Part shown: piece by piece, positions 1,374 through 4,116 of the stretch
How positions within the stretch are numbered: the first letter of the stretch is position 1
Layout of the letters: every line of letters starts with the position of its first letter
Assembly: GCA_946480525.1 (NCBI GenBank)
Contig: CAMLLA010000102.1
Span: 1 to 11,253, forward strand
Source of the DNA: an uncultured Asticcacaulis sp.
GTDB taxonomy: Bacteria; Pseudomonadota; Alphaproteobacteria; Caulobacterales; Caulobacteraceae
Direction of reading: 5' to 3'
DNA: 11,253 nucleotides
Notes under the pieces: model-generated
Database searches by the model: none
Told to the model about the DNA's origin: nothing
The model's input: the letters and a program-made list of their open reading frames with translations, nothing else
Translations under genes and position numbers: made by a program

Positions 1374-3125
1374 ATGACCAAGAGCACGTCCGGCCATGTC
1401 ACAGCTGTGAGTGAAGAAGAACAACGCTTTCCGACGCGCCTTGAAGCGATGCAGCGGCTTGTCGACGTCGTCCAGGAACTGTCCCGGGCCCGCGATGTCG
1501 CTACCATAACGCGAATAACGCGGGACGCCGCCCGCGAACTGACGGGCGCCGACGGCGCGACCTTTGTGCTGCGTGACGGCGAACAATGCTACTATGCCGA
1601 TGAGAATGCCATCGAGCCCCTGTGGAAGGGCAAGCGCTTCCCGATGGAGATGTGTGTCTCCGGCTGGGTGATGATGAACAGGACGCCGGCGGTCATCGAA
1701 GACATCTATGACGATCCGCGCGTGCCGGCCGATGCCTATCGCCCAACCTTCGTGAAGTCGCTGGCCATGGTGCCGATCCGGACCGACGCGCCCGTGGGCG
1801 CCATCGGCAATTACTGGGCGGACAACTATACCCCTACCGAAGACCAGTTGACCATACTGCAGGCGCTGGCCAATACGACGTCGGTCGCGCTCGAAAATGT
1901 CCGGCTGATCGAGGAACTGTGCCAGAAGGTCGAGACGCTCGAGGTTCAGGCTGTGCGTATCAAGCAGCAGCACGAGTCGCTCGAGGTCTTCACTCACGCC
2001 CTGGCGCACGACCTTAAGGAGCCTGTACGTACTGTGCGCGCCTTCTCGGACCTGATCGCCGAAGGTGACGCCGACGACAGCCAGCCGCTCTACTTCGACT
2101 TTATCCGCAAGGCGGCCGACCGTATGGGGATGCTGGTCGAGACGGTATACGCCTATACGCGGCTGCACGACCCGTCGCGCGCCGTCAAAGCGACGACGGA
2201 CGCCGGCGATGCCCTGGCGGGCGCCCAGGACAGTCTGCGCCAACTGATCACATCGTCGGGCGCTGTGATCGAAGCGGGCGCCTTGCCGATGGTCGAGGCC
2301 AATGCGGCGCAGTTGCTCCAGGTCTTCCAGAACCTGATCGCCAACGCCATCAAACACTGCAATGGACCCGCGCTGATCCGCATCGCCGCCAGGGAAGACG
2401 GCGCCCAGTGGCACTTCACCGTGTCGGACAACGGCCCCGGCATTGCGGAGAGCGACCTTCAGCGCATCTTCCTGCCCTTCAAACGCCTCAGGCTCAACGA
2501 GGACGGCGCAGGGCTCGGGCTGGCCATCTGCGCCAAGATCGTCGCCATGCATGGCGGCCGCATCTGGTGTGACTCCGTCGAAGGCGAGGGCGCGACCTTC
2601 CATTTCACCCTGCCCAAGGCGGCGGATGAGCCGCGGCGGGCCGAACCGGCGCTGGCCAATGACGCCGGGCCCGTTGACGAAACCGGTGCCCTGGCGCGCG
2701 TCCTGCTGGTCGACGACCGCGAAGCCGATATTGAATTGACGCGTATCCTGCTGCGCGACCGCGACAAGGCCGAATTCGACCTGAACGTCGCCCGCAGCGG
2801 CAGGGAGGCGCTCGACATGTTGCGCAAGGCGCGTATCGGAGGCGAACGCTACGACCTGATCCTGCTCGATATCAACATGCCCGGAATGGACGGTTTCGAG
2901 ACGCTTGAAGCCCTGCGCCGCGAAGGTGACTTTGCCGACATGGCGGTGGTGATGTGCACGGGCTCGACGCTGGACAGCGATCAGGAACAGGCGCGCAAGC
3001 TCGGTGCCGCGGGCTATATGGTCAAGCCGGCATCACTGGCGCAACTGCGGCCGATGCTGGACGCGGTTCCGGCCCTGCGCTGGCAGGACAATGGCGTGGC
3101 TGCAAGGTTGCTGCGCGTGGCGTAG
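1374..3125 (+). CDS. Soluble hybrid sensor histidine kinase: GAF - HisKA - HATPase - receiver
   Basis: Cytoplasmic hybrid two-component kinase of 583 residues with no membrane segment. In order: a GAF sensor domain (about 20-180), a helical linker (about 180-205), a HisKA dimerisation domain with the phosphorylated His212 in ALAHDLKEP, and an HATPase_c domain with the N box (NLIANAIKHC, 320-329), G1 box DNGPGI (352-357) and G2 box GAGLGL (378-383). The C-terminal receiver has Asp447/Asp448, phospho-acceptor Asp499 (LLDINMPGMDG), Thr529 and Lys551, so every phosphotransfer residue is intact. The HisKA and receiver styles recall the phytochrome/Rcp1 group, but no PHY domain or obvious bilin cysteine site is seen, so the GAF ligand is unknown. 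Start: ATG 1374 has GGGGA 8 nt upstream. A GTG at 1263 with AGGA 7 nt upstream would add 37 residues encoded by AT-rich, promoter-like DNA, and is less likely. No output domain or cognate regulator is adjacent. Confidence 0.9.
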   Translation: MTKSTSGHVTAVSEEEQRFPTRLEAMQRLVDVVQELSRARDVATITRITRDAARELTGADGATFVLRDGEQCYYADENAIEPLWKGKRFPMEMCVSGWVMMNRTPAVIEDIYDDPRVPADAYRPTFVKSLAMVPIRTDAPVGAIGNYWADNYTPTEDQLTILQALANTTSVALENVRLIEELCQKVETLEVQAVRIKQQHESLEVFTHALAHDLKEPVRTVRAFSDLIAEGDADDSQPLYFDFIRKAADRMGMLVETVYAYTRLHDPSRAVKATTDAGDALAGAQDSLRQLITSSGAVIEAGALPMVEANAAQLLQVFQNLIANAIKHCNGPALIRIAAREDGAQWHFTVSDNGPGIAESDLQRIFLPFKRLRLNEDGAGLGLAICAKIVAMHGGRIWCDSVEGEGATFHFTLPKAADEPRRAEPALANDAGPVDETGALARVLLVDDREADIELTRILLRDRDKAEFDLNVARSGREALDMLRKARIGGERYDLILLDINMPGMDGFETLEALRREGDFADMAVVMCTGSTLDSDQEQARKLGAAGYMVKPASLAQLRPMLDAVPALRWQDNGVAARLLRVA

Positions 3126-3133
3126 TCAGTTTT

Positions 3134-3207
3134 GCCTCCCCAAATCCAATAGATTTGGGGAGGGGGACCGCACGAAGCGAAGCTGAGATGCGGTGGAGGG
3201 GGGAATC
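3134..3207 (+). repeat. Left inverted-repeat arm, bipartite palindrome flanking the DUF559 gene
   Basis: Begins 8 nt after the kinase stop. Part one is a perfect 12-bp hairpin (CCTCCCCAAATC 3135-3146, loop CAATA, GATTTGGGGAGG 3152-3163). Part two is a second hairpin with stem ACCGCA (3167-3172) / TGCGGT (3189-3194) and an inner AGC-GAA-GCT. It ends in a G-rich tail, GGAGGGGGG (3195-3203), which doubles as the Shine-Dalgarno of the DUF559 gene. The first 38 nt match the inverted copy at 3611-3648 with one mismatch. It may also act as a 3' stabilising hairpin for the kinase mRNA; there is no T-tract. Confidence 0.85.
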
Positions 3208-3209
3208 AG

Positions 3210-3656
3210 GTGGCCACGAAGGCGGGCTTCACGCCCAAAACGAGATTGGCGCGGCGGTTACGCAAAAAACTTACTGATCCCGAGCTCATGCTTTGGACAA
3301 GGTTGAAAGCGCGAGATGGCTCGGGGTTGAATTTCCGATGCCAGGTGACGGCCGGACCGTATGTTCTCGATTTCTACTGTCCGAAAGTGCGGCTGGCCGT
3401 TGAGGTCGATGGCGCGCATCATACCGAAGATGTGCAACTGGCATACGATGAAGGCCGGGATGCATGGCTTCGCTCCAAGGGCATCGAGGTATATCGCATT
3501 CCGGCATCGATTGTCTTCGCGGATGCCGACTTGGCGGCTGACGGTGTAAAGCAGGTGGCTAAGTCGCGATTGGAAGAAAAGATGCCCCACCACCCCGAGC
3601 CTGGCGGCTCGCGGTTCCCCTCCCCAAATCTATTGGATTTGGGGAGGCAGAAATAG
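3210..3656 (+). CDS. DUF559 endonuclease-like protein (Vsr/PD-(D/E)XK fold)
   Basis: A 148-residue protein of the DUF559 family, small single-domain proteins related to very-short-patch-repair (Vsr) and restriction-type nucleases. Biological role and cut site are unknown for most members. Visible signature: a basic helix (TRLARRLRKKLTDPE, 11-25), LWTRLKARDG, FRCQ (42-45), then the core with Asp54 (VLDFYC) and Glu65/Asp67 (VEVDGAHH, 64-71), a helix with YDEGRDAWL (79-87), and GIEVYRIP (91-98), where the usual ending is a V-x-R-[FI] strand. The putative catalytic acidic residues are present. Start is GTG 3210, 6 nt after GGAGGGGGG. From about residue 127 to 145 the protein is a translation of the right repeat arm (PHHPEPGG, SPNLLDLG), so the natural domain probably ends near residue 120. 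The stop codon lies outside the repeat. The gene fills nearly all the space between two inverted repeats, which suggests a mobile unit. Confidence 0.8.
   Translation: MATKAGFTPKTRLARRLRKKLTDPELMLWTRLKARDGSGLNFRCQVTAGPYVLDFYCPKVRLAVEVDGAHHTEDVQLAYDEGRDAWLRSKGIEVYRIPASIVFADADLAADGVKQVAKSRLEEKMPHHPEPGGSRFPSPNLLDLGRQK
3581..3648 (-). repeat. Right inverted-repeat arm, overlapping the DUF559 3' end
   Basis: Reverse-complement copy of the left arm. It has the same 12-bp hairpin (3619-3630 / 3636-3647, loop TATTG) with a one-base change just beyond it (T3616). Its second hairpin, ACC-c-CGAGCC (3592-3601) / GGCTCG-c-GGT (3606-3615), keeps the outer ACC/GGT ends but has a different interior from the left arm. 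It ends in a tail reading GGTGGTGGGGCATC on the minus strand, against GGTGGAGGGGGGAATC in the left arm. The whole arm except its edges is read through by the DUF559 gene. Confidence 0.83.
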
Positions 3657-3756: not shown

Positions 3757-4116
3757 ATGCATCACGATCCCAAAGCGTTCCGGGCCTGCATCGAACTCTG
3801 CTGGCAATGCCGCGACACCTGCCAGGCAACCCTTTATAATCATTGCCTTCAGATGGGCGGACGCCACACCGCGCCCGACCATGTAAAAATCATGGCCGAC
3901 TGCATCCAGATATGCCAGACTTGCGCCGACTTCCTGACACGGGGATCTGACTTGCATATGGCAACCTGCCTGGCCTGCGCCGACATCTGTGACGCCTGCG
4001 CCATCTCCTGTGAAACGGTGGGCGGCAGCGAAATGCTGGCCTGCGCGGAGATCTGCCAGCGCTGCGGCCACGCATGCAGGGAGATGAGCCACGCGAAGAC
4101 TGCCGCGCTTGCATAG
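3757..4116 (+). CDS. Csp3/DUF326-type cysteine-rich four-helix-bundle copper-binding protein
   Basis: A 119-residue protein with 17 cysteines (11, 15, 18, 22, 30, 49, 53, 56, 71, 74, 78, 81, 85, 96, 100, 103, 107), mostly spaced CxxxC or CxxC so that they line helix faces. This is the hallmark of copper-storage (Csp) / DUF326 proteins, whose four-helix bundle holds many Cu(I) ions on thiolates inside the bundle. There is no signal peptide or Tat leader (it starts MHHDPKAFRAC), which matches the cytosolic Csp3 branch rather than exported Csp1. The length and cysteine count fit that branch. The N-terminal His2/His3 and His29, His37, His42 could add metal ligands. The start has GAGAGGG about 7 nt upstream. 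Nine nt separate its stop from the next start, so it is probably co-transcribed with the dehydrogenase lipoprotein. Copper storage is inferred from the family; the bound metal is not proven by sequence. Confidence 0.85.
   Translation: MHHDPKAFRACIELCWQCRDTCQATLYNHCLQMGGRHTAPDHVKIMADCIQICQTCADFLTRGSDLHMATCLACADICDACAISCETVGGSEMLACAEICQRCGHACREMSHAKTAALA

Follow-up and report, generated by a model that had tools for sequence, protein, structure and literature searches.

A DUF559 nuclease gene enclosed by inverted bipartite palindromes as a probable minimal mobile element

The DUF559 gene and its palindromes

The window, by which we mean the whole 11,253-nt stretch of DNA analysed, contains at positions 3130-3656 a single DUF559 (PF04480) gene enclosed by inverted bipartite palindromes. 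The left palindrome (3130..3206, plus strand) starts 5 nt downstream of the stop codon (3123..3125, plus strand) of an upstream hybrid histidine kinase gene and is composed of hairpin 1, hairpin 2 and an inward tail. Hairpin 1 (3135..3163, plus strand) has the form CCTCCCCAAATC-N5-GATTTGGGGAGG with a 12-bp stem free of mismatches, hairpin 2 (3167..3194, plus strand) has a sequence specific to that copy, and the G-rich tail occupies 3195-3203 (plus strand, by reading). The right palindrome (3584..3652, minus strand) is inverted, so that an inward G-rich tail (3584-3591, minus strand, by reading) is followed by a copy-specific hairpin 2 (3592-3615, minus strand) and by hairpin 1 (3619..3647, minus strand), which again reads CCTCCCCAAATC-N5-GATTTGGGGAGG. 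The two copies have identical 12-bp stems in hairpin 1 and differ in hairpin 2. In the best register a 38-nt core matches at 37 of its 38 positions (left 3134-3171, right 3611-3648), and a repeat-finding tool delimits inverted arms at 3130-3184 and 3598-3652 that are 85% complementary. The local-alignment score of the bracket is 37.0, far above the maximum of 15.5 among 1000 dinucleotide shuffles of the flanks, and the initial annotation, which described two inverted structured repeats with 37 identities in a 38-nt core, is exact on this point.

The gene (3210..3656, plus strand) runs from a GTG start at 3210 to a TAG end at 3656 and encodes a 148-aa Vsr-like PD-(D/E)XK nuclease. Its product matches PF04480 with an E value of 8.7e-23 (a PF18741 match lies below that family's cut-off), confirming the Vsr-like DUF559 gene that had been placed between the repeats, with the refinement that the right palindrome is part of the ORF, at whose 3' end it encodes about 24 C-terminal residues. 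In the predicted structure residues 131-148 are mostly below a pLDDT of 50. P0002, the DUF559 protein next in similarity (81% identical to the window protein), offers a hint about this particular copy: it shares the palindrome-encoded PSPNLLDLGR and, by reading, diverges exactly at the end of the right hairpin in the window. Terminal inverted repeats of the kind used to recognise insertion sequences and MITEs are present in the unit, and its Pfam-tested gene is DUF559 and no known transposase (DDE, Y1 or serine/tyrosine recombinase). By reading, a GTAG tag is absent from both outer edges of the repeats, and one GTAG overlaps the kinase stop (3122-3125).

An Rfam search of the window gives no match, and the left repeat has no DNA match among plasmids. 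The exact stem of hairpin 1, followed by a second palindrome, is seen in one IMG/VR contig (L423:2174-2203), in which a profile search detects no DUF559. The host is probably a member of the Caulobacteraceae close to Asticcacaulis, since a sorbosone dehydrogenase encoded nearby has 92% identity with a protein of Asticcacaulis. The kinase has one full-length relative among the at least 80 loci listed (55% identity, not syntenic), and the M16 protein finds no relatives in 385 genomes other than those of 25-37% identity. We also note a small Cys-rich protein encoded at 3757-4116, without a Pfam match at E <= 0.001.

Residues D54, E65 and D67 of the nuclease are invariant among 50 homologues, and a pattern of the D-x(10)-E-x-D-G-x2-H type is present in 176 of 192 cores, related and duplicate loci included. 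Values of pN/pS lie between 0.16 and 0.43 in all 15 pairs chosen from DUF559 copies at unrelated loci, and the dispersed copies are thus under purifying selection. The window protein is modelled with a pLDDT of 81.9. The structure nearest to the model is 3hrl, a gonococcal DUF559 protein, and the next are the catalytic domain of I-Bth0305I and PvuRts1I; the match to I-Bth0305I (PDB 3r3p) has E values of 8.8e-4 by profile and 2.9e-4 by Foldseek, and among mobile enzymes with solved structures this homing endonuclease is the nearest to the window protein. Homing endonucleases are described in the available excerpt of PMC3943268 as a nuclease class that mobilises its own gene, and these structural matches therefore give the DUF559 model the fold of a class that drives the mobility of its own gene. 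Searches of PHROGs and PADLOC give weak matches, mainly to nucleases or to proteins of unknown function. No strand-transfer chemistry is known for a PD-(D/E)XK nuclease by itself.

Bracketed DUF559 genes and their sites in relatives

PF04480 matches are present in 124 of 385 alphaproteobacterial genomes, at E<=1e-20 in 91 of the 124. Of about 150 listed DUF559 places 130 were sampled (18 weaker ones were omitted, and two G001 places, the same as L081 and L082, stand outside the count); four have no ORF and six lack 250-bp flanks, which leaves 120 scored genes. Inverted repeats with a score of at least 18 bracket 61 of these, against 2 of 265 controls, which are ORFs of 90-400 aa from the same loci, the flanks being taken from the domain edge for DUF559 and from the ORF edge for the controls; with 350-bp flanks, 2 of 200 controls are bracketed. 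One of the controls, a 364-aa ORF in L207, is flanked by inverted palindromes that score 21.5. The remaining 59 DUF559 genes score below 18, many of them with a hairpin on a single side, and within one genus 18 of 30 genes are bracketed. The palindromes match within a unit and differ from unit to unit. These counts support the bracket as a characteristic of the DUF559 gene family.

Brackets also surround 9 of 14 plasmid loci (14 examined of 35 records with a match); they include one from a cyanobacterium and are absent from the Photobacterium and Cupriavidus loci. In the cyanobacterial case, a Pseudanabaena plasmid (L121), the repeats around the DUF559 gene are long, inverted and of a different sequence, which extends the arrangement beyond Alphaproteobacteria. 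Among viral contigs 14 of 17 loci score at least 18, these loci being related and non-independent, and in two of the three misses the right flank is nearly absent. In these contigs (L083-L099, e.g. L093:1637-4605) the DUF559 unit is situated between phage-type portal and terminase genes, a context seen by Pfam on both sides in L093 and on the terminase side only in L099. We take this portal-DUF559-terminase arrangement to resemble the Caulobacter gene transfer agent cluster. A phage origin was considered and dropped: the hit in L093 sits among portal and terminase genes, and many of the contigs have common flanks.

Movement is best viewed in a genus of 41 species, 40 of which have a DUF559 match, the maximum per genome being 10 matches overall and 8 at the strong level (E<=1e-20). 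Among 144 similar unit pairs, which overlap and leave out the viral-contig loci, 92 are alike in the unit only, a class whose homology by definition reaches at most 300 nt past the domain in the query, and 52 have flanks in common. The 121 end comparisons of the unit-only pairs show homology stopping within 10 nt of the outer edge of the repeat at 48 left and 51 right ends, and running more than 20 nt past that edge at none of the left and 4 of the right ends; many others stop inside the unit. The 52 pairs with common flanks indicate that movement is rare or that some copies are fixed.

Two sites are informative. The L240 unit is present in one of the 41 congeners, between two gene ends that by reading are apparently convergent. 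Its flanks are close together in 9 of the other 40 congeners, at spacings of 20 bp in G414, 87 in G425 and 145 in G399, as against 568 or more in G014, and with 683-1348 bp of other sequence between them in six further congeners (four of which were read). No DUF559 match lies between the flanks in any of the nine, and reading of the site in seven relatives reveals no palindrome pair of the unit kind. Between sufB and sufC, 30 congeners (those read of 39 matching genomes) comprise 4 with a full unit, 2 with a gene-less inverted pair, 2 with one hairpin (one called by eye) and 22 with none by pattern, and the tails of the gene-less pairs point inward like those of the units. Units are found inside operons, at sufB-sufC as well as among the transhydrogenase subunit genes.

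Many unit sites are common to several species. By reading, the DUF559 gene adjoins carA/carB in L138, L139, L143, L147, L158, L161 and L244; some pairs from this site share flanks, so at least part of them are inherited, and a search for carA-carB in the genus finds it in two genomes only. Plasmid searches with L117 and L120 yield no clean empty site, and at the L217 site the two flank genes lie apart in congeners where both are matched. The empty sites belong to other species at about 70-80% identity, at which the junctions are not readable to the base and no target-site duplication is readable. Unique and shared sites both occur in the genus studied, which therefore does not show one locus in all relatives, and the possible mobile unit of the initial annotation is backed by units at different sites whose homology is lost at the outer edges of the repeats.

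We conclude that the segment 3130-3652 is probably a minimal mobile element that works in a RAYT/REPIN-like manner with a non-homologous PD-(D/E)XK nuclease. Comparison in relatives supports this reading in four respects: the bracket is characteristic of the DUF559 family; gene and bracket are found together at different sites, intergenic where inspected; gene-less inverted pairs are dispersed in many copies and can take up the site of a full unit; and selection on the nuclease in dispersed copies is purifying. A plausible scenario is that the DUF559 nuclease would recognise its own palindromes and cut or nick at their outer edge, that host repair would finish the copying, and that gene-less pairs would be mobilised in trans; any that have inward tails may be deletion derivatives of units.

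The strongest alternative is that only the gene moves, the nuclease cutting pre-existing, solitary palindrome pairs and repair from a copy that bears the unit inserting the gene between the repeats. The nearest mobile enzyme of solved structure, I-Bth0305I, is after all a homing enzyme, and gene-less and full pairs with equally inward tails are both present at sufB-sufC. However, within each unit the left and right ends agree in sequence, although different loci carry different palindromes, and where units are alike their homology often covers the repeats as far as the outer edges. On this evidence gene and bracket appear to travel as one; at the L240 site, moreover, none of the seven relatives read has a palindrome pair of the unit kind. 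We therefore favour movement of the whole bracket and consider homing of the gene alone unlikely.

Dispersed hairpins, gene-less doublets and a second nuclease family

A C-rich hairpin of the pattern CCCTCYCCCN{2,14}GGGRGAGGG is present in up to 271 copies per alphaproteobacterial genome, and the reversed pattern, used as a control, in no more than 3, except for 51 in G057. Among 201 genomes of at least 2.5 Mb (184 smaller ones were excluded), a strong DUF559 match (E<=1e-20) is accompanied by five or more hairpins in 57 of 77 genomes, and as many hairpins are present in 12 of 124 genomes that lack one (p 3e-21, relatedness ignored), 12 of the 124 carrying weak matches. Exceptions exist on both sides, namely the 12 genomes with at least five hairpins and no strong DUF559, and 13 with strong DUF559 and at most one hairpin. 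Together with the brackets around 61 of 120 genes versus 2 of 265 controls, these figures contradict the absence of a statistical link between repeat and DUF559 that would have spoken against the earlier proposal. Twenty-four genomes rich in hairpins, each with at least 30, were chosen (G065 and G365 reach that number too but were omitted); DUF559 is present in 21 of them, and PF01797, the Y1 family of REP transposases, is undetected in 19, including the eight richest. Three genomes (G158, G178 and G231) have 30-44 C-rich hairpins and no DUF559 match, possibly reflecting loss of the gene, an assembly gap or another mobiliser.

Two 400-kb samples (G052:C1:1-400000 and G340:C4:400001-800000) contain 24 and 29 hairpins that form 10 and 11 adjacent pairs, 21 in 800 kb. 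Nineteen of the 21 can be oriented by their tails (two are ambiguous) and all 19 are inverted, 14 with tails outward and 5 with tails inward, one of the inward pairs being a DUF559 unit itself. The spacers of outward pairs recur: one genome has five such pairs, four of them spaced by 31-32 nt, and the other has nine, of which five are spaced by 63-64 nt. The 26 of 61 DUF559 units that could be classed by tail comprise 23 inward and 3 outward. Since most units face inward and most pairs outward, most of the sampled gene-less doublets are not just units that have lost their gene by deletion, and this opposite orientation slightly lowers our confidence both in the favoured explanation and in its extension to several nucleases, discussed below.

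GIY-YIG genes in the genus of G014 (L424-L453) offer a parallel. Inverted repeats with a score of at least 18 bracket 20 of the 27 genes with full flanks (30 were fetched), against 2 of 200 controls at equal flank length. The palindrome types are distributed differently in this one genus, the C-rich type bracketing 15 of 30 DUF559 genes and none of 27 GIY-YIG genes, and the types CGTC..CCA (3) or CCGTTCG..CGAAGG (9) bracketing 12 of 27 GIY-YIG genes and none of 30 DUF559 genes. At the class level the C-rich type is found around 51 of 120 DUF559 genes and CGTC..CCA around 1 of 120, and none of the three types surrounds any of 200 control ORFs. The patterns were written after the loci had been viewed, and these type counts are accordingly descriptive.

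These observations bear on a further alternative, in which the mover of MITE-like palindrome pairs is a separate transposase, DUF559 being retained as repair or defence cargo. No transposase chemistry is known for DUF559, G158, G178 and G231 are rich in hairpins without a DUF559 match, most sampled doublets have tails opposite to those of the units, and a role in mismatch repair has been proposed for VsrA, a DUF559 protein of Caulobacter (PMC12907096, in the portion available). Set against this, a Y1 transposase is undetected in 19 of the 24 hairpin-rich genomes (a survey of PF01797 only), the three palindrome types bracket none of the 200 control ORFs, and two nuclease families in one genus own different palindrome types. 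We regard a passenger role for the nuclease as distinctly unlikely. That the palindromes are terminators or insulators gathered around immobile DUF559 genes is highly improbable: they do form strong hairpins, and the L240 unit lies between apparently convergent gene ends, but the inverted, unit-specific matching ends, the loss of homology at repeat edges, the empty sites and the units inside operons such as sufB-sufC are all left unexplained. A Vsr repair gene without mobility was also considered, and it fails on the states of the sufB-sufC site and on the homology that ends at repeat edges.

If the favoured reading of a mobile nuclease-palindrome unit is extended, unrelated single-domain nucleases (DUF559 and GIY-YIG) would own and spread palindrome families both as units and as gene-less doublets. 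Such minimal elements would depend on cutting and host repair with no transposase, and would explain abundant REP-like repeats for which no mobiliser is known, CGTC REPs among them. We advance this tentatively, and judge it about evenly balanced, if slightly more doubtful than not. Many bacteria carry REP-like palindromes in abundance, and a DUF559 gene inside matching palindrome pairs is a testable candidate for the spreader of the C-rich kind, as the GIY-YIG parallel is for some CGTC repeats. If true, many annotations as 'endonuclease domain-containing protein' would become parts of mobile elements.

Comparison with known systems

Searches of open-access PMC return no paper on DUF559 that is about repeats, judged by title and start of abstract, none for GIY-YIG with 'repetitive extragenic palindromic', none on the topic by title for Vsr with palindromes, and none for REPIN, RAYT and endonuclease that names DUF559 in the title or start of the abstract. 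Rhizobial intergenic mosaic elements (RIME) contain two palindromes each and are alike by description; they are not known to be associated with a nuclease gene.

RAYTs are HUH/Y1 enzymes, and the likeness to REP/REPIN-RAYT systems lies in a small nuclease-type gene between inverted palindromes. Relatives of the window unit add dispersed inverted doublets with recurrent spacers, as in the REPINs of PMC3116915 (from the part available). The RAYT-like layout with a DUF559 enzyme that was proposed for the window is supported by the dispersed gene-less inverted doublets and by the 19 of 24 hairpin-rich genomes in which PF01797 is undetected. The latter also separates the two systems, as do the window repeats, which are without GTAG. 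Enzyme superfamily and tag thus differ, and we describe the element as RAYT/REPIN-like and not as a member. Copy number differs as well, with up to 8 strong DUF559 matches per genome, whereas RAYTs are described as single-copy in the same excerpt of PMC3116915.

CGTC-tagged REPs (Di Nocera 2013, PMC3733652, as excerpted) predominate in Alphaproteobacteria and have CCA tails, most units of many families lie close together in opposite orientation, and the available text states that they have no dedicated transposase. They resemble the DUF559 system as palindromic repeats of Alphaproteobacteria with close units in opposite orientation. The DUF559 palindromes differ in being C-rich and without CGTC/CCA ends (with the 1 of 120 exception at class level); palindromes of the CGTC..CCA type are seen around 3 of 27 scored GIY-YIG genes instead.

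In Caulobacter, CCNA_02930 (VsrA) and CCNA_02876 are annotated as Vsr-like endonucleases, and VsrA has a DUF559 domain (PMC12907096, in part). The likeness to the window protein is in this domain, and the difference is that the Caulobacter proteins were studied for SOS induction and a proposed role in mismatch repair; 'palindrom' and 'inverted' are absent from the main text of that paper. The EDxHD homing endonuclease I-Bth0305I shares with DUF559 a Vsr-like catalytic fold and a mobile nuclease gene (PMC3943268, available excerpt). It differs in that the window protein is a single domain of 148 aa in which no further DNA-binding region is recognised, and in that DUF559 units are bracketed by palindromes and occupy several sites, and not one coding target.
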